Part shown: positions 24,805-43,488 of the stretch, one piece after another | Layout of the letters: every line of letters starts with the position of its first letter | Position numbering within the stretch: the stretch's first letter is position 1 | Origin: Deltaproteobacteria bacterium | Lineage (GTDB): Bacteria > Desulfobacterota > Syntrophobacteria > Syntrophobacterales > Syntrophobacteraceae | Length of the DNA stretch: 48,552 nucleotides | NCBI GenBank assembly: GCA_012517315.1 | Contig: JAAYVE010000047.1 | Span: forward strand, 1 to 48,552 | Direction of reading: 5' to 3' | The notes under the pieces: generated by a model | Databases searched by the model: none | What the model saw: the letters and a program-made list of their open reading frames with translations, nothing else | Told to the model about the DNA's origin: nothing | Translations under genes and position numbers: made by a program

Positions 24805-25515
24805 TCACAGGTTGCGGAAATACTGGCGCCGGCAGGTGATCCCGGCCTCCTCTAGTTCCCCATAGAGTTCTTCCAGCCGTGCATCGGCGGTGACCACCGC
24901 CCGTTGCCGGTCGCCGGCGGAACCGTCGGTGGGGAAGCAGGCAAAGCAGCGTTCACAGGAACACTCCACCCGATCCACCCGGGCGGAGAACTTGCCCGTC
25001 AGGAAGGTCTGCGCCCGCTCCTGCCTGTCGAAATGCTCCACGGCAGGCATGAAGGAGAGAGCCGGCTGGATCGTTACACTCCTGCCGGACTTGGCCGCGG
25101 CCACAAGGTCGGGCATGGTCCAGACCTCCGTGCCCACTGTCGGTCCCTGGTCGAACTGCAGCATCATCTCCGCTAGTTCGAAAAGGCGTTCCTCCACCTC
25201 GATCCCTCCGGACTTGAGCTTATGGTAGTCCCGCTTCAGATAGCGGTTGGCGATCTGCACCGCCTGAAACACGTGGGGACAGAGATTGTTGGGGCACCCC
25301 CGGGCATAGCACTTGCGGAAGGTGTAGTCCTCTCCGTCGATGGTGCCGGAGTAGCGGCAAAGAAAGATGTGGGCGCGGTACGGGTTGGTCCGGTGCTGGA
25401 AGTCCACCGGCAGAATCTCGAATGCGGTTTGACAGGTGACAGCCGCGCCCTGCCGTTTTCTCTGCACCAGGTCGGTGACCCTCAGGGGTGGATCAAGTTT
25501 TCGGGTGCCGGTCAT
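24805..25515 (-). CDS. Cys-rich hypothetical protein at the end of the Hdr operon
   Basis: 236 residues; I do not recognise the family. Two cysteine groups are visible. Near residues 70-80 there is C-Y-A-R-G-C-P-N-N-L-C-P-H, and near the C-terminus C-S-C-E-R-C-F-A-C (about 192-200), so up to two Fe-S or zinc sites are possible. A third Cys lies in F-L-C-R-Y. There is no signal peptide or membrane segment, so it should be cytoplasmic. GGGAGA precedes the ATG. It is the last gene of the series, about 100 bp after dsrE, and the hairpin follows it. Context suggests a redox partner or assembly factor for the Hdr/TusA/DsrE proteins, which is inference. Confidence 0.7.
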   Translation of the reverse strand: MTGTRKLDPPLRVTDLVQRKRQGAAVTCQTAFEILPVDFQHRTNPYRAHIFLCRYSGTIDGEDYTFRKCYARGCPNNLCPHVFQAVQIANRYLKRDYHKLKSGGIEVEERLFELAEMMLQFDQGPTVGTEVWTMPDLVAAAKSGRSVTIQPALSFMPAVEHFDRQERAQTFLTGKFSARVDRVECSCERCFACFPTDGSAGDRQRAVVTADARLEELYGELEEAGITCRRQYFRNL

Positions 25516-25616
25516 CTTGGGTCTCCCATGGCTATGGTCACATCATGGACGCATTGGCGGAAACGGGGCGGGGAAAAACCCCGCACCATCCCAGCCCCCG
25601 GGGTCTCCCCGGCGGC

Positions 25617-25991
25617 TCAGTACACCAGGACTGCATCGGCGGCCAAGGCGGCGATGTTGATCTGAGCAGCGGCGGTCACCTCGGCCCCGGCAACCAGCTC
25701 GCTTTCCGCGACCCCGTATTCCTTGATGCACGGCCCGCAAACCAGGATCTTGCCGCCCAGTTCCAGAAAATCGCCCAGCAGCTTCTTCATGGGCGGAAGT
25801 CCGCCGGCGGCCGGCATCGCGTCCACAAACCCCTTCTTGGCCAACTCCACGGCACGGGCCTGCATGACAATCGTCGCTTCGACGTCCATGGCGAGGGCTG
25901 CATTGGCCAGGACGAAGGGAAAGGCCGCCTTTTCCGGGTTCTCGGCGCCGACGGTGGTGATGTAGAGGATCTTTTCGGTCTTGTTTTCCAT
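25617..25991 (-). CDS. DsrE-family sulfur-carrier-like protein
   Basis: 124 residues. The N-terminus I-L-Y-I-T-T-V-G-A-E-N-P-E-K-A, the middle A-T-I-V-M-Q-A-R-A-V and K-I-L-V-C-G-P-C-I-K-E-Y-G near residue 85 are the DsrE/DsrF-like (YchN) fold with a conserved cysteine at the end of a strand. In this family that Cys carries persulfide sulfur and exchanges it with TusA-type proteins, and two TusA-like genes stand at the head of this gene series. The ATG at 25991 with AAAGGAG is preferred over the GTG 9 bp earlier. Confidence 0.85.
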   Translation of the reverse strand: MENKTEKILYITTVGAENPEKAAFPFVLANAALAMDVEATIVMQARAVELAKKGFVDAMPAAGGLPPMKKLLGDFLELGGKILVCGPCIKEYGVAESELVAGAEVTAAAQINIAALAADAVLVY

Positions 25992-26038
25992 GTTGCTCAC
26001 TCCTTTGTGTCTTTAGGGGGTGGGATGAAATCCGCTTC

Positions 26039-26971
26039 TCATGAAAGAGTCTCCACCAGAACGCTGGACAGGTCCCGTACGTCGGCACCCAGCTTGCGCA
26101 GGTTTCCCAGACAGATGGGACACATGGCCACGATGGGAGCCCCGGTGCCTTCCAACTGGGCCAGGCGGCGCCTTCCCACATCGTCGGCGAGCCTGGGCGA
26201 TACGGATTCGGCAGGACCTCCGCAGCAGTGAGTGTAGGCACCGGAGCGCTCTAATTCGGCACAGTCGATACCCAGCTCTGCAAGGGCTTTTGCGGGCACG
26301 TCGGAGAGACCCAGATATCGCCCGTAGAAGCATGGATCGTGAAGGGCCACCGTGCGCCGACCATTGTTGCCCCCTTTGAGTTGGATCATTTCGAAATAGG
26401 GATGCACCTCGAATCGGGAGCCGGTGTACTTGGGGAAAAGCTCTTTCAGGGCATAGGTGGTGTGAGGATCGACGGTGATGAGCTTCCTGACGCCCGCCTT
26501 TTTCAGCCGGTCCGCCAGCCAGCGGGCATGGGTGACGAAAGTGTCCCTGTCGCCCAGGTCATAGAGCAGGATGCCGCTATAATGGTCCAGTTCCGGCCTG
26601 TAGTAGAAATCGACCCTCGAAGCATTGAGGACTCGGACGATGTTGTTCAGGATCCCGTTCATCTTTTGCTTTTCCCGCCGGGGGGTGATCATCGCCAACC
26701 CGAGCCCCGAGAGATAGCTGGGCACGTAACGGGTGTAACCGACGTACCGACTCAGCGGCGTGTCCTCGTAGCGGCTCAGGTAACCGGTGGATTTCTCGAT
26801 GTACGGGATGAACTGGTACATGAGCCCGGTGAAGAGTAGGGCGTCCCCTTGGCGCGGCAGTTTTGAACGGCCCCACCAGCGATTCACCATGAAATGAGGA
26901 ATGCCGAAGGGGTTGCGCGTGGCACGCAGATTCCCGGCAATGGTCTCGATGATGTCTCTGGGATGATACAT
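26039..26971 (-). CDS. HdrB/HdrD-like protein with a single CCG domain
   Basis: 310 residues. One complete cysteine-rich CCG motif is present: C214 in D-P-C-F-Y-G-R-Y, C249-C250 in H-C-C-G-G-P-A-E-S, and C284-x-x-C287 in C-P-I-C. In HdrB this motif holds a non-cubane 4Fe-4S cluster at which disulfides are split. The N-terminal half corresponds in position to a second CCG domain but has no cysteines, so only one such cluster is expected. It pairs with the HdrC-like gene just upstream: the ATG at 26971 lies 2 bp before the HdrC coding end, with GGAGG upstream. The substrate may be a protein persulfide or disulfide rather than CoM-S-S-CoB, by inference from the neighbours. Confidence 0.83.
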   Translation of the reverse strand: MYHPRDIIETIAGNLRATRNPFGIPHFMVNRWWGRSKLPRQGDALLFTGLMYQFIPYIEKSTGYLSRYEDTPLSRYVGYTRYVPSYLSGLGLAMITPRREKQKMNGILNNIVRVLNASRVDFYYRPELDHYSGILLYDLGDRDTFVTHARWLADRLKKAGVRKLITVDPHTTYALKELFPKYTGSRFEVHPYFEMIQLKGGNNGRRTVALHDPCFYGRYLGLSDVPAKALAELGIDCAELERSGAYTHCCGGPAESVSPRLADDVGRRRLAQLEGTGAPIVAMCPICLGNLRKLGADVRDLSSVLVETLS

Positions 26972-26972
26972 T

Positions 26973-27275
26973 TCAGCTTTTCCTCCAGTGGTCGAGAACC
27001 AGGCGTTTCAACCCCAGGATGATTTCCCCGGGGTTGGCCTCCCGCGGGCATGTCTGGGTGCACAGGCCGCAGTGCAGGCACTTCCACAGCTCCGTTGCAG
27101 CTTCCAGGATCCTTTCCTTGGCCCCGATCTGGACGTAGCGGATCATGCTGCGGGGAAAATGGGAATCGATGAGCGGGCAGATCGCCGCGCAGGTGCCGCA
27201 GTTGAAACAGGCCAAGGCACTGTCCTCGCTGAATTGTTTCAGTTCTTCGGCAAAATCCGGGTTGAGCATGGTCAT
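26973..27275 (-). CDS. HdrC-like 4Fe-4S ferredoxin subunit
   Basis: 100 residues. Two complete cluster motifs are present, C23-x2-C26-x2-C29-x3-C33-P and C66-x2-C69-x2-C72-x3-C76-P, arranged as in HdrC, which passes electrons from HdrA to HdrB. The second motif is followed by R-E-A-N-P-G-E-I, as is usual in HdrC. The start overlaps the preceding gene by ATGA and the stop is just before the HdrB gene, so all three are coupled. Confidence 0.88.
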   Translation of the reverse strand: MTMLNPDFAEELKQFSEDSALACFNCGTCAAICPLIDSHFPRSMIRYVQIGAKERILEAATELWKCLHCGLCTQTCPREANPGEIILGLKRLVLDHWRKS

Positions 27276-27616
27276 GGTTTTTCTCCCGGCTGGGTTCGAG
27301 CGTCCACTTCGGCCGATTCATCGTCCTGCTGCCTGCCGGCCGCCAGTGCATAGCGAAAATAGCTGTCGTCCTGACCGGCCTCCACGATCTGGCCGTACTT
27401 CTTAAGGCCGGCGACGAACCAGAGGACGGCTTCCGTCGGAAGCCCGACGGCCTCGGCGATTTGCGGCACGGTGGCCGCGTCTTCTTCCAAGACTTGCTGG
27501 ATGGCCTTGATGGTTTTCTTCTGGAATTTCGACTCGGCCGTGGCCTGATCGACCCACTGTCGGCGCGACGCACGCAAGTCCTTGAGGGCCTGGGTCTTTG
27601 CCTTGTCGGCGCTCAT
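27272..27616 (-). CDS. Small winged-helix-like protein within the Hdr series
   Basis: 114 residues. The N-terminal 45 residues are basic and helical. The middle, E-E-D-A-A-T-V-P-Q-I-A-E-A-V-G-L-P-T-E-A-V-L-W-F, looks like a DNA-binding winged helix of the type that discriminates target sites by a short recognition helix. The tail is acidic and disordered-looking. I chose the ATG at 27616 with GGGAG upstream, since the frame continues beyond it without features. The stop overlaps the HdrC start. It may bind DNA, or it may be a protein-protein adaptor for the complex; the family is not certain. A 196-bp gap separates it from the HdrA gene upstream. Confidence 0.68.
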   Translation of the reverse strand: MSADKAKTQALKDLRASRRQWVDQATAESKFQKKTIKAIQQVLEEDAATVPQIAEAVGLPTEAVLWFVAGLKKYGQIVEAGQDDSYFRYALAAGRQQDDESAEVDARTQPGEKP

Positions 27617-27812
27617 CGTTGTCACTCCCCGTTTTGAAGATGCATGCACATCATGTGATGAACCGTCGAACATGCGGTCAACTCCGTCCTCCACTGCTGC
27701 GGTCACCGCCCGCCGGTCCCGACGTACCAAGCGGTTCCTTCCACGGCGTATCCGCCAGAAGCATGGTGAGAATGCAGCCCACGGCTAAGCCGAGGTGCTC
27801 CGGTGCGATGGT

Positions 27813-29717
27813 TCAGCGCAGTGCATCCGCCGCGACCTGGTCCGCGACAATGGCGTCGACCATCGCCTCATATTGACTCAGGGTCATACCGCAGACATCG
27901 ATGGCGTTTTCGGGGCAGACGGCCACGCAAGCCCCACATCCCAGGCAAAGGGCCGGAGTGACTTGGGCGCGGCGGACCGTTTGCCCGCCTATTTGCATTT
28001 CCACCAGGGCCAATGCACCGGGGTTCAGGCACGCTTCCACGCAGGCGCCCGACCCCTTACAGCGTTCCGCGTCCACTTCGGCCACGAATGGATCCAGTTC
28101 CACGTGACCCTCGGCAAGCAGGGACGCAGCTTTCACTGCAGCCGCCCCGGCGGCGTTGCAGGTTTCGCCCACGTCGAACGGGGCTTGGCAGGTACCGGCC
28201 ACGAAGATCCCGCCCACCGGCATTTCCACCGGGCGCAGCTTGGGGTGCACTTCCAGCAGAAACCGATCCACGCCCACAGGTAGTTTCATCATTTCCACCA
28301 GGTCCGACACGTCGTTCGGTTCCATGCCTGTGGAGAGCACCACCAGATCGGCCGGGACCTCCAGGTTTTCAGAAAAGGTCAACGTGTCGGTCACCCGGAT
28401 TTTCAGGGGGTAGCCATCCGTCGGATCGGCCCTCACCACTTCGGGGGCCTGGTCCGGTTCGAAGCGCAGGAAGACCACCCCGTCGCGAGCCGCCTGTTCG
28501 TAGAGTTCCTCCTGACCACGGCCGTAGGTGCGGATGTCGCGGTACAGTTCATAGACCCGGGTGCCGGGGTGGGTCTCCCGGATGCGGCAGGCGGCGTTGA
28601 GGGTAGCCGTGCAGCAGGTGCGTGAGCAGTATTCGTTCAAGCGGCCGGATGCGTCTTCCGGGTGAATGCCCGGAATCTGGCGGCTGCCGACACAATGGAT
28701 CATGGCCACACTGCGGATGCGGCGTCCGTCAATTTCCAGGAAGCTTCCCTCCGTGTCCTGCTCGGCCATTTTTCGGATGAGGGTCGGCAAGGTGATGACG
28801 GATGCAAAGTCGCCGAACCCGTATTCCCCCTGCCGCGGCTCGTAGGAACGAAACCCGGTTGCCACGACGATGGCGCCGGTCTCGAGGTTGAACTCCCTGG
28901 GTTCCGAAGGGGAAGGTCCTGCCGGCCTCATGCCGGAAAACGGGATGTAGCAGGCTTCGGTCCCGGTGAAGGCTTCGGATGCCACCTCCTGGCGCACCGT
29001 GAGCTTAAAGTTGCCGATGTAACCGTCGGTGGCGATCACCTGGGCGTCAGTGAACACCGTGATGTGCGGATGGTTGAGGACCGCATCGGCCAATGCGCGA
29101 ACCAGTTCAGGGGCACGCTCCCCTGTTGGGGCGATGCGGTCCAGCCTGGCCAGTTGCCCGCCAAGGCAGGGCGATTTTTCGACCAAGGTGACGGGAATGC
29201 CTCGATCAGCCAAGTCTCTGGCGGCACTCAGTCCGGCCACGCCTCCTCCGATCACCGTGGCGTGACGGGCGGCCGTAACCCGGATCGGAGTCAGGGGCCT
29301 GAGGAGGCCGGCTTTGGCGGCTGCCGCCTCCACCAGTGTGGCGGCCTTTTCGGTGGCCGCCGCCCCGTGGTGGACCCAACTCACCTGTTCCCGGATGTTG
29401 GCGTGTTCGTAGATGTAAGGGTTGGCACCGGCGCGCCGGATGGCATTGCGAAACGTGGTTTCATGAAGGCTCGGTGCGCAGGAGGCCACCACCACGCGGT
29501 CCACGACGCCGTTTTTCAGGTCCTCCGCGATCAGTTCCTGACCAGGATCGGAGCACATGAACATGTTGGTTCGGGCCACGGCCACCCCGGGCACCTTTTC
29601 CAGGCGCCGGCGGACCGCCTCCACGTCCACGTGGTCGGAAATGTTGCCGCCGCAGTGGCAGATGTAGACGCCGACTTTCGTGGCGTGTTGTTTTTCCTTT
29701 TCTTTGGCTTGCGTCAT
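27813..29717 (-). CDS. HdrA-like FAD/Fe-S protein, long form
   Basis: 634 residues. The N-terminal HdrA-type domain has V-G-V-Y-I-C-H-C-G-G-N-I (15-26), F-M-C-S-D-P-G-Q and V-V-A-S-C-A-P-S. The FAD-binding motif V-I-G-G-G-V-A-G-L-S-A-A starts near 155. The C-terminus is a two-cluster ferredoxin: the second cluster is complete (C591, C594, C597, C601) but the first reads C553, S556, C559, C563, so its second Cys is Ser. The internal ferredoxin insert of methanogen HdrA is missing and is present in the partner HdrA at 29746-31062, so the two may form a heterodimer that together equals one full HdrA. It should bind FAD and route electrons; bifurcation is inferred. Confidence 0.85.
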   Translation of the reverse strand: MTQAKEKEKQHATKVGVYICHCGGNISDHVDVEAVRRRLEKVPGVAVARTNMFMCSDPGQELIAEDLKNGVVDRVVVASCAPSLHETTFRNAIRRAGANPYIYEHANIREQVSWVHHGAAATEKAATLVEAAAAKAGLLRPLTPIRVTAARHATVIGGGVAGLSAARDLADRGIPVTLVEKSPCLGGQLARLDRIAPTGERAPELVRALADAVLNHPHITVFTDAQVIATDGYIGNFKLTVRQEVASEAFTGTEACYIPFSGMRPAGPSPSEPREFNLETGAIVVATGFRSYEPRQGEYGFGDFASVITLPTLIRKMAEQDTEGSFLEIDGRRIRSVAMIHCVGSRQIPGIHPEDASGRLNEYCSRTCCTATLNAACRIRETHPGTRVYELYRDIRTYGRGQEELYEQAARDGVVFLRFEPDQAPEVVRADPTDGYPLKIRVTDTLTFSENLEVPADLVVLSTGMEPNDVSDLVEMMKLPVGVDRFLLEVHPKLRPVEMPVGGIFVAGTCQAPFDVGETCNAAGAAAVKAASLLAEGHVELDPFVAEVDAERCKGSGACVEACLNPGALALVEMQIGGQTVRRAQVTPALCLGCGACVAVCPENAIDVCGMTLSQYEAMVDAIVADQVAADALR

Positions 29718-29745
29718 TGGGTCCGTCTCCCTGCCTTGTGAAAGG

Positions 29746-31062
29746 TCACGCGACCAAGTGTTTCCTGGCCGATGAAGCCCTCAGGGCCGCCAGGTACTTG
29801 CCGGCCGCCATGGCTGCGTTCCCGGCCTCGGTGATCGTATCGACAATGTCCTTGGGACCGACGGCCGCACCGGCCGTAAAGACTCCCTCCATGACGGTCG
29901 CTACTGGTGACAGCTTGGGGCGGGGACTCTCGAGGAAATGATCCGGTCCCGTGGCCAGAGGGCAGATGCCCTCCGGATTCCAGGCCGGAATCAGGCCAAG
30001 GGAGAGGACGGCCATGTCATGTTCCGCAGTAGACACCCCATCCCCGTCCTGGGCCTCGTAATGGAGCCGGACCGCGCCGTCCGGACCCGGCTCCACAGCC
30101 GCCACCTTGGCCTTGACGAAATTGATCCCCATGGCCTGGGCGTTTTGGAAAAACTGCTCGTAGCCTTTGCCGAAGGCCCGGATGTCCATGTAGTAGATGG
30201 TGATGTCCGCCAGTGGAAGAGCGCCGGACAAGAGCATGGCCTGCTTGATGGCATACATGCAGCACACGCGGGAGCAGTAGGAGACCCCCATGGATTTGTC
30301 CCTTGAGCCTGCGCACTGGATGTAGGCGATTCTGTCCGGCACCTTGCCGTCGGAGGGGCGCAGGACCCTGTTGTAGGGTCCATGGGGAGCGAGCAGCCGC
30401 TCCATCTGCAACGCATCGATGAGGTTAGGGATTCTGCCGCGACCGTACTGCGGCTTGTCGCCCAGGGTCGTCATTTCGAAGCCTGTGGTGATCAGAGCGA
30501 CTTTGGCCGTCAAAGTGAATGATCGGGGTTCCTGAAAATAATCGATGGCCTGGGTCGGGCACACCTTCTCGCAACGCCCGCAGAGCATGCAGTGCTGAGG
30601 GTTGAGCACGGCAATTTGCGGAATGGCGTTGGAAAAAGGGATGGCAATAGCCTTGGTGGGCGAAAACCCCCCCTGTTCCCTGTCGCTGACCATCACAGGG
30701 CAATTGTATTCACACTGGCGACAGCCGATGCATTTGTGTGCGTCCACATAGCGCGGCTTCTGCTGGACCTCTGCCCGGACCATGCCGCCTGTGCGCCGCA
30801 GCGATTGCAGATCGCAGTAGGTGAACAGGGTGATGCGATCGTGGTGGGCGGCAGCGGCCATTTTGGGCGTGGTGATGCAGCTGGCGCAGTCCAGGGTGGG
30901 AAAAACCTTGGAAAGCCGGATCATCTTGCCGCCGACCGAGGCATCCTTCTCAACGACGGCCACGGTATACCCCTGGTCGGCCAGGTCCAGGGCGGACTGC
31001 AGACCCGCGATTCCTCCACCGATCACCACCGCATCAAAGTCCACGTTGCGTGAATTGTCCAT
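29746..31062 (-). CDS. HdrA/QmoA-like FAD and ferredoxin protein
   Basis: 438 residues. The FAD motif V-I-G-G-G-I-A-G-L-Q-S-A starts at 13. F-P-T-L-D-C-A-S-C near 54-62 is the HdrA cysteine pair that normally contacts an extra cluster. Two 4Fe-4S motifs follow at C111/C114/C117/C121 and C158/C161/C164/C168. The second half is the NAD/FAD-type domain with A-Y-I-Q-C-A-G-S-R-D and Y-C-S-R-V-C-C-M-Y-A, both usual in HdrA. It lacks the N-terminal HdrA domain, as QmoA does, yet carries clusters that QmoA lacks. GGGGAGAG precedes the ATG. It lies between mvhD and the long HdrA gene, 28 bp from each. Confidence 0.86.
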   Translation of the reverse strand: MDNSRNVDFDAVVIGGGIAGLQSALDLADQGYTVAVVEKDASVGGKMIRLSKVFPTLDCASCITTPKMAAAAHHDRITLFTYCDLQSLRRTGGMVRAEVQQKPRYVDAHKCIGCRQCEYNCPVMVSDREQGGFSPTKAIAIPFSNAIPQIAVLNPQHCMLCGRCEKVCPTQAIDYFQEPRSFTLTAKVALITTGFEMTTLGDKPQYGRGRIPNLIDALQMERLLAPHGPYNRVLRPSDGKVPDRIAYIQCAGSRDKSMGVSYCSRVCCMYAIKQAMLLSGALPLADITIYYMDIRAFGKGYEQFFQNAQAMGINFVKAKVAAVEPGPDGAVRLHYEAQDGDGVSTAEHDMAVLSLGLIPAWNPEGICPLATGPDHFLESPRPKLSPVATVMEGVFTAGAAVGPKDIVDTITEAGNAAMAAGKYLAALRASSARKHLVA

Positions 31063-31089
31063 TTTCGTCGCTCTCCCCGCCGGAGCCGT

Positions 31090-31518
31090 TCACCCGTTTT
31101 CCTGCCCGGGTTCACCGGCTGCCGGTTTTTGCACCAGTTCGTTCATTTGGTTCACTTCATTAAGAAAGGCCCGGTTGCACACCGTGCAGATGGCCGTGAG
31201 GCGCAACCGGCGGATGTCCATGCCCTGTGCTTTCATGGCCTGGTAGACACGGTCGAGCCGGCGGGCCAGGGCGTGATAGGCTCCGTCGTAAGGGCATTCC
31301 TCCCCACACGACATGACAATGATGCCCGCGATCCCCTTGCGAAAGCAGTCCAGATAGAAGCGCTCCGGAAAGAGCACCGGTGCCTTGACCCGCAGGATGT
31401 AAACATTGGTCGGGTAGGTGGAGTGGGCCTGGCCGACCGAATCGGCGCCCGGATAGGCGCAACTCTCGGTCGCCAGGACCAGTATCTTGTTTCCTTTCGC
31501 CTGACTTGGCACTGTCAT
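31090..31518 (-). CDS. MvhD-like Fe-S subunit
   Basis: 142 residues. E-S-C-A-Y-P-G-A-D near 19-27, F-P-E-R-F near 50, M-S-C-G-E-E-C-P-Y near 69-77 and I-C-T-V-C-N near 110-115 follow the layout of MvhD/FlpD, the 2Fe-2S protein that links HdrA to hydrogenase or formate dehydrogenase. The first CxxC of MvhD is reduced to one Cys (C20), so the cluster set may differ. No hydrogenase or formate dehydrogenase gene is adjacent; the electron donor must be encoded elsewhere or be reached through HdrA. Confidence 0.82.
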   Translation of the reverse strand: MTVPSQAKGNKILVLATESCAYPGADSVGQAHSTYPTNVYILRVKAPVLFPERFYLDCFRKGIAGIIVMSCGEECPYDGAYHALARRLDRVYQAMKAQGMDIRRLRLTAICTVCNRAFLNEVNQMNELVQKPAAGEPGQENG

Positions 31519-31572
31519 GGCCTTGCTCCGTAAGTTGTGGAGTGTGCTGGGAACGGCCCCCTCACGGGTGGG

Positions 31573-31824
31573 TCATTTCTTGCGGCGCACGAAGTGCTTG
31601 TCGTACCCGTCCGCCTCCACAAAGCCGATGTATTCGTGGCCCACTTTGCCGGCCCAGGCGGGAATGTCCTTGCGGGTGCCGCTGTCGTTGGAATAGATTT
31701 CCAGCACCTGACCCACCTTGACCTTGCCGATTCCCTTCTTGGCCTCCAGAAGGGGCCCCGGGCAGGCGCTGCCCCGTGCATCGACGGTGTTGTCCGCTTG
31801 AATTTTGCTCAGATCAGTTGTCAT
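31573..31824 (-). CDS. TusA-family sulfurtransferase with CPxP
   Basis: 83 residues. V-D-A-R-G-S-A-C-P-G-P-L-L-E-A near residues 13-27 is the TusA core with the active cysteine in C-P-G-P, which carries sulfur as persulfide. L-E-I-Y-S-N-D at 42-48 and the strand after it complete the fold. I set the start at the ATG at 31824, which follows AAAGGAGAG; the frame is open further upstream but has no features there. It overlaps the preceding TusA-like gene by 11 bp. A role in delivering sulfur to the DsrE protein and the Hdr complex is inferred from gene order. Confidence 0.86.
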   Translation of the reverse strand: MTTDLSKIQADNTVDARGSACPGPLLEAKKGIGKVKVGQVLEIYSNDSGTRKDIPAWAGKVGHEYIGFVEADGYDKHFVRRKK

Positions 31825-32119
31825 TCTGCTCTCCTTTCGTTTCGGCAGGCACTCGTCCCGCCGGAGTGGAATGGGTGTGTTCAGCCGGTCGGCAGATGAG
31901 CCGGATGCGATATCCTGTAGGCTCCACGCGGGCTTCGGTGACCGTGAATCGGGCTGGGGTGAGGAGCCGCAACAACTCCCTGAAGGTGCCGGGATCCGCC
32001 CCCCGGATTTCCAACCCGTCACCCACCTGCATCCGGCGCAGGGCCTGGTTGACCTTGAGCAAAGCAAGCGGCTGCAGGCTGTCGTGAAGATCCATTTCCA
32101 TGTGGATTTGTTCGGTCAT
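31814..32119 (-). CDS. TusA-like protein lacking the catalytic cysteine
   Basis: 101 residues. The segment M-D-L-H-D-S-L-Q-P-L-A-L-L-K-V-N-Q-A-L occupies the place of the TusA helix, and M-Q-V-G-D-G-L-E-I-R-G-A-D-P-G follows as in TusA, but the position of the catalytic Cys is not Cys and CPxP is absent. It may be a structural partner or regulator of the active TusA encoded next to it. The last third is a divergent tail. It is the first gene after the sigma-54 promoter, with GAGG near the ATG, so it heads the operon. Confidence 0.7.
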   Translation of the reverse strand: MTEQIHMEMDLHDSLQPLALLKVNQALRRMQVGDGLEIRGADPGTFRELLRLLTPARFTVTEARVEPTGYRIRLICRPAEHTHSTPAGRVPAETKGEQNDN

Positions 32120-32156
32120 CCGGCGTTCGCCTCGTTCCTGTTCGCTGCGTCATAAG

Positions 32157-32172
32157 GGCAAAGGGAATGCCA
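32157..32172 (-). promoter_or_regulatory. Sigma-54 promoter (-24/-12) of the Hdr operon
   Basis: On the minus strand TGGCATTCCCTTTGCC matches TGGCAC-N5-TTGC, with the essential GG and GC exactly 12 bp apart. Transcription would start near 32145, about 26 nt before the first gene. An activator of the enhancer-binding type is encoded divergently less than 200 bp away, which supports the call. Confidence 0.8.
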
Positions 32173-32184
32173 GGACACCTACAA

Positions 32185-32205
32185 CCAGGATCCTGTCGAT
32201 CCTGG
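32185..32205. promoter_or_regulatory. Perfect inverted repeat CCAGGATC-N5-GATCCTGG
   Basis: Arms of 8 bp are perfectly complementary around CTGTC. The centre lies about 48 bp upstream of the predicted sigma-54 start site, close for an enhancer site but possible for an activator or repressor dimer. A second, imperfect dyad (CTGTCTAA / TTAGAACAG) lies near 32324-32342, just before the activator gene, and could be its own binding site. Confidence 0.5.
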
Positions 32206-32352
32206 GACTCAATAAGCATTGGATATTCCATGGAAATAGCCTGGAAGGGGGAAGCTGGCCTGTCCCGCCCACGGCACGGTCTTGCCCCACGCCTGTAAAA
32301 AAGCTATACCGCACATTGAACAACTGTCTAAAATTAGAACAGGATTGTGGCG

Positions 32353-33768
32353 ATGCTCGAACAGGACATGAACACCTATTGGCGCACCGTGGTGGATACC
32401 ATCCAGGACGCGGTGATGATCGTGGACACGGACGGGACCATTGTGACGGTGAACGCGGCCTTTGCCCAGGTGACGGGATACGGTGCGGAGGAGATTGTGG
32501 GGCGGTCGTGTGCCGTGCTTCAGTGTCCCAGCTGTCACAAGGACCGGGAGGGAAACAAGGAACACTGGTGCAGTCTCTTTCGCACCGGTGCGGTGCGTCG
32601 GCACCGCTGTACCATTCGCCACCGCTCGGGCAAAGACGTTCCGGTCATCAAGAATGCCGCGGTTCTGCGGGACAGGGCCGGGGGGGTTCTCGGCGGTGTT
32701 GAGACCCTGACGGACATCAGCGCTTTAGTGGACAGGGAACGCCAAATCGAGGCGTTTCGCCGGGAACTGTCCGCACAGGACGGCTTTGAAGGCCTCATCG
32801 GGATCTCCAGGGCCATGCAGGGGGTTTTCGATCTCATCGCCAATGCCGCCCAAAGCGATGCGCCTGTGATCATCTTCGGAGAGAGCGGCACGGGCAAGGA
32901 GCTGGTGGCCAGAGCCATTCATCAGCGGGGTCCGCGGCGGGAAAAGCCTTACGTCAAGGTCAACTGCGCGGCCCTGGCTGAATCCCTGCTGGAGAGCGAG
33001 CTGTTCGGTCATGTGCGGGGGGCTTTCACCGGTGCGGTCCAGGCCCGCCAGGGGCGTTTCGAAGCGGCGGCCGGAGGTGACATCTTCCTCGACGAAATCG
33101 GAGATCTGCCCATGACCTCGCAGGTCAAGCTGTTGCGTGTGCTCGAGGAAAAGGTCATCGAAAGGGTGGGGGACAATCGGCCCATCCCGGTGGATGTGCG
33201 CATCATAACGGCCACCAACCGCGATCTGGGGCGGATGGTGACCGAAGGGCGGTTTCGCGAGGACCTGTTTTACCGCATCAATGTGATCCCATTGATTCTG
33301 CCCCCCTTACGGGAGCGCATGGAGGACATTCCCCTGCTGGCGGAATCCTTTTTTCGCCGCTTGCAGCTCAAGAGTGAAAAACCGGTGGAGACCATTGCCT
33401 ATGACACCATGGGGATGTTGATGGCCTACGACTGGCCGGGGAACGTGCGTGAACTGCGAAGCGCCTTCGAATACGCTTTCGTCGCCTGCCCCGGCGGTGC
33501 TATCGAGCCCAAACACCTGCCTCCGAACATCCTGCGGCATTGCACCTGCCTTCCGGCGTCGGCCGCCGACGCAAAATCACCGGAAGACGTGCCCCCGCCG
33601 CGTTCCATCGGCGGCCTGTCGCCCAGAGACATCCTCATCGCGGCCCTGGAGCAGGCTGGTGGCAACCAGAGCGCCGCAGCCCGCATCCTGGGGGTATCCC
33701 GCGGCACGGTTTGGAACCGCATGCGCCGTTACGGAATCAAGGCGCGAAGTCCTTGGCGGTCTCCGTGA
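32353..33768 (+). CDS. Sigma-54-dependent activator with Cys-rich PAS domain
   Basis: 471 residues. The N-terminal PAS domain (about 8-125) has five cysteines at 53, 58, 61, 73 and 86, the first four of them in one loop. The AAA+ domain has Walker A G-E-S-G-T-G-K-E (176-183), the intact sigma-54 contact loop G-A-F-T-G-A (223-228) and F-L-D-E-I-G-D (245-251). The C-terminus is a Fis-type HTH (Q-S-A-A-A-R-I-L-G-V-S-R-G-T-V-W). There is no receiver domain, so it probably senses redox state or an Fe-S or other ligand through the PAS cysteines. It is divergent from the Hdr operon and its sigma-54 promoter. ATG 32353 with AGGA 9 bp upstream is preferred over the GTG at 32347. Confidence 0.9.
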   Translation: MLEQDMNTYWRTVVDTIQDAVMIVDTDGTIVTVNAAFAQVTGYGAEEIVGRSCAVLQCPSCHKDREGNKEHWCSLFRTGAVRRHRCTIRHRSGKDVPVIKNAAVLRDRAGGVLGGVETLTDISALVDRERQIEAFRRELSAQDGFEGLIGISRAMQGVFDLIANAAQSDAPVIIFGESGTGKELVARAIHQRGPRREKPYVKVNCAALAESLLESELFGHVRGAFTGAVQARQGRFEAAAGGDIFLDEIGDLPMTSQVKLLRVLEEKVIERVGDNRPIPVDVRIITATNRDLGRMVTEGRFREDLFYRINVIPLILPPLRERMEDIPLLAESFFRRLQLKSEKPVETIAYDTMGMLMAYDWPGNVRELRSAFEYAFVACPGGAIEPKHLPPNILRHCTCLPASAADAKSPEDVPPPRSIGGLSPRDILIAALEQAGGNQSAAARILGVSRGTVWNRMRRYGIKARSPWRSP

Positions 33769-42023: not shown

Positions 42024-43451
42024 TTAACGGCGCCTGTTTCGACCGTCCCCTTGCGGGACAGCGATGTTCAGTGTCTTGATCTTGCGGTATAAGGTACTCG
42101 CATTGATCCCCAGTTCCCGGGCAGCTCGGCTCCGGTTGCCGCCGCAACGGCTCAGAGCCTGGGCGATGAGCCGTTTTTCCATCGATTGAAGACTCAGGTC
42201 TTCCAGTTCCGGGGGAGTGATGAGCATCTCCGGCCGCAGCTCGGGAGGCAGGTGGCGCAGTTCGATGAGGCTGCCTTTGCACAGGACGAAGGCCTGTTCA
42301 ATTATGTTCTCCAGTTCACGGACGTTTCCGGGAAAATCGTGGTGCATCAAACGGGCCATGGCTTCCACGGAAATCCCTGCGATGTCTTTGCCCTGCATGT
42401 GATTGAACTTGGCGATGAGATGCTCCGTCAGCAACGGAATGTCTTCGCGGCGTTCCCTGAGAGGGGGCAGCTCCAGGTGGATCACCCGGATGCGGTAGTA
42501 CAGGTCATCGCGAAAGGTTCCTTTGCGTACCAACTCGGCGAGGTTCCTGTTGGTGGCGGCTACCACACGGACATCCACGGGAGTGGATTTCAGGGTTCCC
42601 AGTGGCTCGATGGCGCGTTCCTGCAGTACCCTTAAAAGCCGCACCTGCAGCGCAGGTGAAATGTCGCCGATTTCGTCGAGGAAGAGCGTTCCTCCATCTG
42701 CCAAAGTGAACCGGCCGGCCTTGTCCCGTCGGGCGTCGGTGAAGGCCCCGGCTTTATGACCAAAGAGTTCGCTCTCCAGCAAGGTGTCCGGAAGAGCTGC
42801 GCAATTGACCGCAACGAACCGCTTCCTTCGCCGGGGCGAAAGGTGGTGAATGGCCCTGGCGAAAAGCTCCTTACCGGTTCCGCTCGGTCCCTCGACGAGT
42901 ACGGTGCTGCTGCTTTCAGCAATCTGCGGGAGTAGGTCGAAGAGCCGCAGCATGGCAGGACTGCGGCCGATGATGTCTTGAAAATTGTAGCGTCCCCGGA
43001 GTTCCTTCTGAAGCTGACGCACCTGGCTGAGATCCTGAAACGTTTCGACTCCGCCCATGATTTGCCCGAAATCGTCTTTCAGGATGGCCGTTGAGAGCCG
43101 GATAGGGACCATACGGCCCTGTCGGTTCAGGATGTGAGCGGTGACGTTGACTACGGGCTTTCCCGTGTCGAAGGTCCGTCGCAGGGCACACTCGTGCTCA
43201 CAGATGTCGGCGTGAAAAACCTCGAAACATGTCCTGCCGATGGCCTCATGTCGGGGAACGCCGGTGATCGTCTCGGCGGCCCGGTTGAAAGAAAGGATCC
43301 TCCAATCGGGGTCCACCGTGAAAACCCCTTCGTTGATGGATTCCAGGATCACATCCCTGTCATGGTTCCAGTGCATCTGTCCTTGCGGATGTCCTGAGAA
43401 ATGTTTCGTGCATTTTGCCTGTCTTAATTCTTCAAAGGTTGCAAAATGCAT
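42024..43451 (-). CDS. Sigma-54-dependent activator with Cys-PAS domain (GAFTDA variant)
   Basis: 475 residues from the ATG at 43451 (an in-frame TTG 12 bp earlier and an ATG at 43376 are alternatives). The PAS domain (about 33-140) has cysteines at 75, 84 and 88 in a loop like that of the other activator in this window. The AAA+ domain has Walker A E-G-P-S-G-T-G-K-E (187-195), F-L-D-E-I-G-D for Walker B and G-A-F-T-D-A at 235-240 in place of G-A-F-T-G-A, the loop that touches sigma-54. The C-terminus is a Fis-type HTH (R-A-A-R-E-L-G-I-N-A-S-T-L-Y). It lies between the 2-oxoacid oxidoreductase genes and the cytochrome, all on one strand. Confidence 0.88.
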   Translation of the reverse strand: MHFATFEELRQAKCTKHFSGHPQGQMHWNHDRDVILESINEGVFTVDPDWRILSFNRAAETITGVPRHEAIGRTCFEVFHADICEHECALRRTFDTGKPVVNVTAHILNRQGRMVPIRLSTAILKDDFGQIMGGVETFQDLSQVRQLQKELRGRYNFQDIIGRSPAMLRLFDLLPQIAESSSTVLVEGPSGTGKELFARAIHHLSPRRRKRFVAVNCAALPDTLLESELFGHKAGAFTDARRDKAGRFTLADGGTLFLDEIGDISPALQVRLLRVLQERAIEPLGTLKSTPVDVRVVAATNRNLAELVRKGTFRDDLYYRIRVIHLELPPLRERREDIPLLTEHLIAKFNHMQGKDIAGISVEAMARLMHHDFPGNVRELENIIEQAFVLCKGSLIELRHLPPELRPEMLITPPELEDLSLQSMEKRLIAQALSRCGGNRSRAARELGINASTLYRKIKTLNIAVPQGDGRNRRR

Positions 43452-43488
43452 GTTTCTTGTCAAGCTCTGATTCGAGACGGGTAAGGGT

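Follow-up and report, generated by a model that had tools for sequence, protein, structure and literature searches.

A conserved Hdr operon with TusA and DsrE genes and a predicted role in sulfur-carrier-coupled electron transfer in sulfate-reducing bacteria

Introduction

In sulfur oxidisers, TusA- and DsrE-type proteins supply Hdr-like complexes (PMC6067878, PMC11582611; published work is cited here from the accessible parts of the sources). The sHdr-LbpA system (hdrC1B1A-hyp-hdrC2B2, with lbpA) has two HdrB/C pairs, a short sHdrA and lipoate-binding proteins. For sulfate reducers, type II DsrEFH is a recent addition to sulfane-sulfur handling, and the accessible part of its description notes no redox partner of the kind presented below (PMC13293266). 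QmoAB-HdrBC complexes are known from some Deltaproteobacteria (PMC10504309). The operon described here bears on the cytoplasmic handling of sulfane sulfur by sulfate reducers; it lies on the minus strand of a 48,552-nucleotide stretch (the window) from a Deltaproteobacteria bacterium of the Syntrophobacteraceae (assembly GCA_012517315.1, contig JAAYVE010000047.1) and joins hdr and mvhD genes to genes of the TusA and DsrE families.

The operon shares HdrA, HdrB, HdrC, TusA and DsrE with sHdr-LbpA, and both place a small extra protein between the A gene and the next C gene. Unlike sHdr-LbpA, it has one HdrB/C pair, a single CCG motif, paired HdrA proteins and MvhD, and no linked LbpA. Two complementary HdrA-type flavoproteins, an MvhD-type module and HdrC are common to the operon, QmoABC and QmoAB-HdrBC, but compared with QmoABC its MvhD is a separate protein, HdrB replaces the membrane subunit QmoC, and TusA and DsrE are added. 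HdrABC-MvhAGD and FlxABCD-HdrABC also contain HdrA, HdrB, HdrC and MvhD modules; here, in contrast, HdrA is split and duplicated, the MvhD cysteines are altered, hydrogenase and Flx genes are absent from the operon, and HdrB has one CCG motif where methanogen-type HdrABC has two. In sulfate reducers and disproportionators the YTD cluster (PMC13293266) likewise combines TusA and DsrE, and YeeE/YedE genes downstream of five related loci are a further YTD-like trait. As described in the accessible part of that source, however, the YTD cluster has no Hdr genes, and the operon has a single DsrE rather than DsrEFH.

We found no description of this cluster in the open-access literature, as represented by the accessible parts of PMC12142623, PMC5109826, PMC13293266, PMC12998232, PMC10504309, PMC9751629, PMC8780430, PMC6067878, PMC11582611, PMC4759654, PMC4046663, PMC7117923 and PMC6085437; this absence is provisional.

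A recurrent ten-gene unit

The minus-strand series at 24805-32119 runs TusA1, TusA2, MvhD, HdrAa, HdrAb, a winged-helix protein, HdrC, HdrB, DsrE and a Cys-rich protein (CysR), with every gene present and in the order listed by the first-pass annotation, which was made from the sequence without database searches. TusA1/TusA2 and winged-helix/HdrC overlap, HdrC and HdrB are 1 bp apart, HdrAb and the winged-helix gene are separated by 196 bp, and the remaining gaps are 27-101 bp.

To describe its distribution we scanned named genome contigs, which gave 142 pattern matches, of which 128 were confirmed and the best 80 kept (loci are labelled L plus a number). Among these 80 HdrB loci, seventy-two are of the operon type, with HdrB identities of 47-81%, and eight are Archaeoglobi relatives that were excluded from the tallies. 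Between one and seven of seven partner genes stand beside HdrB in the seventy-two loci, all seven in forty, and shortfalls are set mostly by contig ends. Where a locus could be assessed, HdrC was found in 70/70, the winged-helix protein in 68/68, HdrAb in 65/66, DsrE in 61/62, HdrAa in 57/59, MvhD in 50/52 and TusA2 in 45/48, so that each core gene is present in 45/48 to 70/70 loci. This recurrence rejects a chance neighbourhood peculiar to one genome, which the first-pass annotation had named as a possible undoing of its reading.

Carriers include Desulfosarcina widdelii, Desulfospira joergensenii, Desulfobacter vibrioformis, Desulfamplus magnetovallimortis, NaphS2, Desulfacinum and Desulfoferrobacter; one of the seventy-two loci (L143) is labelled Archaeoglobaceae. 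Within the class, 15 of 55 genomes, the host's own included, have an HdrB match at E < 1e-100. The host genome carries dsrA (564.8 bits), in agreement with the sulfate-reducing or syntrophic anaerobe proposed as host, and dsrA is not enriched among carriers (12/15, against 46/55 of the class overall). The Archaeoglobi loci (L175-L177, L179, L181-L184) have an HdrB relative at 37-43% identity in other gene contexts, and six loci (L107, L110, L118, L119, L120, L129) have a second HdrA/HdrB-type set downstream of the operon.

Sulfur carriers and linked sulfur genes

TusA2 (31573-31824; Pfam TusA 70.8 bits) is a canonical sulfur carrier by its ACPGP motif, whose CPxP cysteine, Cys21, is conserved in 37/37 aligned rows. 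TusA1 (31814-32119; 27.8 bits, just below the Pfam cut-off of 28.6) is TusA-type in sequence and has no CPxP cysteine, and in this lineage it cannot, on its predicted sequence, act as a sulfur carrier of the usual type. The two TusA-like proteins of the first-pass annotation therefore stand as one putative carrier and one relative. At least eighteen of forty loci have a clear TusA1, ten without the cysteine, seven with CPWC and one with CPWV; the automated count was 24/40, in which the non-clear ones score E 0.02 or worse and from which some are missing (e.g. L112).

The DsrE-family protein (25617-26000; Pfam DsrE 60.8 bits) has a CGPC motif whose C88 and C91 are present in 45/45 rows with letters, ten of the fifty-five rows being gapped there. 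In L135, L153, L165 and L167 a DsrE gene with a CLPC motif leads the operon. No DsrE follows HdrB in L135, L165 and L167, and L153 ends too early to judge. YeeE/YedE genes (in L157 with 164.7 bits) lie downstream in L144, L150, L157, L159 and L180, and the loci with downstream genes of rhodanese type are L144, L146, L150, L155, L157 and L180. Coupling of the Hdr operon to sulfur carriers is well supported by these predicted genes, and the second DsrE position together with the linked YeeE/YedE, rhodanese and CstR-like genes (see below) of some loci strengthens it.

Hdr and MvhD subunits

HdrAa (29746-31062) has a FAD domain with an inserted ferredoxin domain and no N-terminal HdrA domain; HdrAb (27813-29717) has the N-terminal HdrA domain, a FAD domain and a C-terminal ferredoxin domain. 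Both show HdrA flavoprotein homology to the NCBIfam HdrA2 model (444.9 bits over positions 137-561, and 504.2 bits in two stretches), and both fall below its full-length cut-off of 1100 because each protein is partial. HdrAa covers model positions 135-561, HdrAb 1-233 and 311-644, and MvhD 645-770. By this coverage HdrAa and HdrAb are, as had been proposed, complementary; HdrA is split and duplicated in them, and the predicted domain layout of HdrAa, HdrAb and MvhD is that of QmoA/QmoB. The second cysteine of the first ferredoxin motif of HdrAb is mostly gone, being kept in 5/59 rows.

HdrC (26973-27275; 100 amino acids) has profile matches and two [4Fe-4S] motifs, with all eight cysteines conserved in 63/63 rows, and matches only the first 94 of the 360 positions of the qmoC model. 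HdrB (26039-26971) has only one CCG motif, which lies towards its C terminus (Pfam CCG 39.7 bits over one stretch). Its C214, C249, C250, C284 and C287 are present in all 71 or 72 rows with letters, out of 73, and its N-terminal half has no conserved cysteine, any column there having Cys in at most 8/73 rows. For the C-terminal part, LdhH (1.3e-9) and TfrB (2.8e-8) are the clear matches, HmcF (0.0038) and DsrK (0.039) weak ones; the match of HdrB to the TmcB model is also weak (E 0.026).

MvhD (31090-31518; Pfam FlpD 70.8 bits; PDB MvhD chain E 6.6e-14) keeps C20, C58, C71, C111 and C114 wherever a row has letters, whereas C75 is present in 42/46. Its cysteine set is altered, some cysteines of the solved MvhD chains being gone and others added. 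The module points to cytoplasmic electron partners; the operon itself showed no gene for an electron donor.

Phylogeny and the relation to Qmo and sHdr

In a 30-row HdrA tree, the eighteen HdrAa rows form a branch of their own with support 100/100. The remaining rows are two Qmo-type and four HdrA-type proteins of the host genome, an Ilyobacter HdrA, four second-set HdrA proteins and one sHdr-like HdrA; the tree thus has a small reference set, and some of its rows are long. Seven rows that were long or doubtful had been removed from an earlier 37-row tree (the second hits of L130 and L107, four archaeal second hits and L143). HdrAa falls outside the two Qmo rows, so the outcome that the first-pass annotation had named as refuting, HdrA inside Qmo, was not seen for the Qmo rows of this tree. 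A joint HdrAa and Qmo clade is not rejected (p-AU 0.098), and HdrAa may be kin to Qmo. The second-set HdrA proteins of L110, L118, L120 and L129 form a branch separate from HdrAa.

The sole sHdr-like HdrA at hand (353 amino acids, on a long branch) also falls outside the HdrAa rows. It comes from a Picosynechococcus plasmid (NZ_CP016476.1, 185219-189667; L185) with an sHdr-like C1-B1-A-C2-B2 gene row, the one usable cluster among two records from a plasmid search for sHdr references. A GCV_H search of the host genome found no lipoate-binding protein linked to the operon. The one match, a 309-amino-acid protein on contig C10, lies about 2.7 kb from another HdrBC set (C10:685-5643). With one HdrB/C pair, a different HdrA and no linked lipoate protein, the operon is, as far as its gene content tells, not sHdr; here the first-pass annotation was borne out.

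Among thirty-six hand-chosen genomes, eighteen of them carriers, a QmoC-like protein occurs in 16/18 carriers at E 1e-40, eight of these above the curated cut-off. Because of this coexistence, the operon is not a simple replacement of Qmo. The host itself has a QmoA/QmoB/QmoC-like set on contig C47 (full-length QmoC-like protein, 201.7 bits against a curated cut-off of 300) and a QmoA/QmoB/HdrD-like set on contig C56, where a probable ATP sulfurylase gene, recognised by eye, adjoins QmoA, QmoB and the HdrD-like protein (C56:73124-80067), in addition to the C47 set.

Regulation

The unit had been taken to end at 32119. The genes within that extent stand, and the end does not: the divergent activator gene and a sigma-54 promoter belong, from their sequences, to the unit, which runs on to 33768. 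A strict sigma-54 promoter match, TGGCATTCCCTTTGC, lies on the minus strand at 32172-32158, 53 bases before TusA1. Strict matches were found in 27/40 related upstream regions, searched from -300 to +60 of the assigned start, and in 40/2759 background windows (1.4%) cut from the same loci.

The activator (32347-33768, plus strand) consists of a PAS domain (PAS_9 62.8 bits), a sigma-54 AAA+ domain (Pfam Sigma54_activat 237.4 bits) and a Fis helix-turn-helix domain. It is present in 38/43 assessable loci, four of these being only 41-46% identical. In an alignment of the window's protein and thirty-eight relatives, five of them only 41-46% identical, the PAS cysteines C55, C63 and C75 are conserved in 39/39, C88 in 38/39 and C60 in 36/39. 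A sigma-54 AAA+ domain with N-terminal regulatory-type cysteines is also the arrangement of FisR-type regulators, FisR being a sigma-54 activator in the sulfide response (PMC7315123). The divergent sigma-54 activator, sigma-54 promoter and N-terminal cysteines recall Cupriavidus FisR and its control of sulfide-oxidising genes, a likeness read from sequence alone; the operon's activator differs in having a PAS-domain cysteine set.

Two loci (L164 and L170) have a CsoR-family repressor gene upstream (74.9 bits in L164). Its product has Cys39 and Cys68 (29 apart), a tyrosine at the place of the CsoR histidine, and a third cysteine, and by the CsoR ligand pattern it reads as CstR-like. CstR detects sulfane sulfur via two cysteines (PMC9918477).

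Winged-helix protein and CysR

The small winged-helix protein (27272-27616), which has no cysteines, is modelled as the winged helix it had been taken for (AlphaFold2 pLDDT 86.9). Foldseek gives SmtB/ArsR- and MarR-type domains at probability 1.00, but the best E is about 2e-3 and none reaches 0.001. The protein's constant position between HdrAb and HdrC, like that of Hyp in sHdr (PMC6067878), suggests by analogy a subunit rather than a regulator.

CysR (24805-25515) has no Pfam family. A structure model predicts two tandem alpha-beta3-alpha repeats (pLDDT 84.7), for which no confident PDB match was found (Foldseek best E 0.058; VIA best Z 5.9, a ribosomal protein). CysR is present in 27/42 assessable loci, and we rejected it as an obligatory subunit. 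Two genomes (G034 and G022) have a CysR gene with no operon on its contig, and G034 carries the operon on another contig. Three tandem CysR genes, 34-47% identical to that of the window, occur in L110 (1512-3715). Past CysR, L128 and L162 have two DsrE-like genes and a second HdrAa-like gene (57-59%), as well as stress, GAF and thioredoxin reductase-like genes recognised by eye.

Proposed function and alternatives

We consider the chances about even that the operon encodes a sigma-54-controlled, soluble complex coupling sulfur carriers to electron transfer by two-electron chemistry on TusA/DsrE-bound sulfur. Sulfane sulfur would be loaded on the ACPGP cysteine of TusA2 and handed to the CGPC motif of DsrE, which would present a persulfide or trisulfide to HdrB, TusA2 to DsrE to HdrB being the simplest path. 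There the single CCG-bound [4Fe-4S] site may form or cleave the S-S bond in a two-electron reaction. HdrC would connect this site to the QmoAB-like flavoprotein pair and MvhD, which would exchange electrons with cytoplasmic carriers. The net direction we favour would be reductive, taking protein-bound sulfane sulfur to sulfide. A docking or structural role may fall to TusA1 and the winged-helix protein, and the PAS-Cys activator may turn the operon on upon a change in sulfane sulfur or redox state. What the sequences show is the gene content and its conservation, the cysteine sites, the promoter match, the regulator and a distinct HdrAa branch; we infer from them that a complex forms, as well as the type of cluster, the path of the sulfur, the partner in electron exchange, the direction and the signal. 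Two-electron S-S chemistry is preferred over a four-electron oxidation to sulfite because there is one CCG motif, no second HdrB and no linked lipoate protein.

Several observations weigh against this proposal. HdrB is sparse across the phylum, with matches at E 1e-60 in 7/217 sampled genomes, the host's own included. The truncated loci L131 and L133 keep HdrC, HdrB and DsrE and are missing TusA2, MvhD and HdrAa despite room for them, and by the searches made L142 has neither TusA2 nor DsrE, again with room present. TusA1, by its sequence, has no sulfur-binding cysteine. YeeE/YedE and/or rhodanese linkage is found in a minority of loci (7/72), mostly near relatives and partly one clade, with Pfam runs covering one or two members. 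The operon showed no gene for a hydrogenase, a formate dehydrogenase or Flx. The PAS cysteines are a lead to sulfur sensing and no proof of it, because the FisR of A. baumannii answers sulfide without the regulatory cysteines of Cupriavidus FisR (PMC7315123). The case for reduction, finally, comes down to the missing second HdrB and lipoate protein.

The complex could instead work oxidatively in an sHdr-like pathway, taking TusA/DsrE-bound sulfur to sulfite and on to AprAB/Sat in reverse or to disproportionation. The Hdr-like complexes of sulfur oxidisers are indeed supplied by TusA- and DsrE-type proteins (PMC6067878, PMC11582611), carriers include metagenome-assembled genomes labelled Desulfocapsa (L142 and L167), and type II DsrEFH has been proposed as a marker of sulfur oxidation in sulfate reducers (PMC13293266). 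We nevertheless regard this pathway as unlikely: the operon has one HdrB/C pair and one CCG motif, its HdrA lies outside the sole sHdr-like reference and differs in layout, no lipoate-binding protein is linked in the host genome, and the Desulfocapsa-labelled L142 is the locus in which TusA2 and DsrE were not found. The QmoA/QmoB layout in which HdrCB substitutes for QmoC, an arrangement reported for QmoAB-HdrBC complexes (PMC10504309), the p-AU value of the joint clade (0.098) and the weak DsrK-type match of HdrB would fit a Qmo- or DsrC-type module, in which the complex serves AprAB or a DsrC-trisulfide and TusA and DsrE merely regulate or dock. Such a module is quite unlikely given the distinct HdrAa branch, the separate QmoC-like protein in 16/18 carriers, and the neighbouring genes: no sat, aprAB or dsrC occurs among those scanned with Pfam, and none was recognised among the recurring neighbours of relatives, which were judged by eye only.

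Stress-type control, in the form of the sigma-54 PAS-Cys activator and the CstR-like repressor, and the sparse, apparently mobile distribution would suit reactive-sulfur homeostasis, with the operon an inducible sink for excess persulfide rather than an energy pathway. A ten-gene flavin/Fe-S complex would probably be costly for detoxification, though, and no persulfide dioxygenase or SQR was recognised by eye in the recurring neighbours (not model-scanned as a whole), and we think this explanation very unlikely. TusA proteins also serve several pathways, and TusA has been called a central sulfur hub (PMC11582611). TusA and DsrE might thus provide sulfur for modifying tRNA or making cofactors, with the Hdr complex acting on an unrelated thiol or CoA substrate. 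The tight Hdr linkage of TusA2 (45/48) and DsrE (61/62), kept where DsrE changes position, makes this highly improbable.

Taken with the gene inventory, these comparisons confirm what the first-pass annotation had observed and partly support its interpretation: the difference from sHdr, the recurrence in many genomes, the dsrA-bearing host and the link to sulfur carriers are borne out. The persulfide or polysulfide cycle linked to flavin-based electron transfer that it put forward would be a possible activity. The gene set points to an unstudied movement of electrons on or off protein-bound sulfur in many sulfate-reducing bacteria. A broader claim, which we put at slightly less than an even chance, is that the sulfur-carrier-coupled complex represents a third class of Hdr-based sulfur enzyme, methanogen Hdr and sHdr being the other two. 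Sulfate reducers would then have a soluble persulfide:electron-carrier oxidoreductase that is mobile and sigma-54-inducible and whose single-CCG HdrB, coupled to a paired-HdrA flavin system, acts directly on TusA/DsrE-bound sulfur. If so, sulfane sulfur could be reduced or oxidised in the cytoplasm without membrane Psr or sHdr. The operon may also explain some of the many Hdr paralogs of Desulfobacterota that have no assigned role, and as a conserved, apparently transferable, inducible unit it offers a concrete target for deletion in culturable strains, carriers of this kind being Desulfobacter vibrioformis DSM 8776, Desulfospira joergensenii DSM 10085, Desulfosarcina widdelii PP31 and Desulfacinum hydrothermale DSM 13146.

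Horizontal acquisition

The 9-kb unit looks, from nucleotide comparison, to have been horizontally acquired in this genome. Over 24817-33746 the DNA shares 73-80% identity with L105 and L112, both labelled Desulfobacterales, and no flanking match to these loci was found at E 1e-10 beyond one of 149 bases. By the extent of this match the regulator, core and CysR seem to move as one unit. In a genome of the same genus, HdrB finds no counterpart at E 1e-25. The operon has a GC content of 61.7%, against 58.4% in other stretches of the same genome, and its tetranucleotide signature is not outstanding (0.899, against 0.896-0.969 in other parts of the window). We rejected a contaminant contig as the main explanation because the adjacent branched-chain permease gene finds its best match among fifty-nine genomes in the same-genus genome (86%).

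Other features of the window and host genome

The window is one entire contig of a 4.43-Mb genome in sixty-one contigs. Below the operon lies the branched-chain amino-acid type transporter, and above it a substrate-binding protein and sensor genes (Pfam), all unrelated to the unit. A second PAS sigma-54 activator (42024-43463) adjoins pyruvate:ferredoxin oxidoreductase-type genes. The genome has fifty-eight HdrA-type matches in total; HdrA- and MvhD-type matches on contigs C24, C28, C33 and C40 contain an in-frame TGA that probably encodes selenocysteine.

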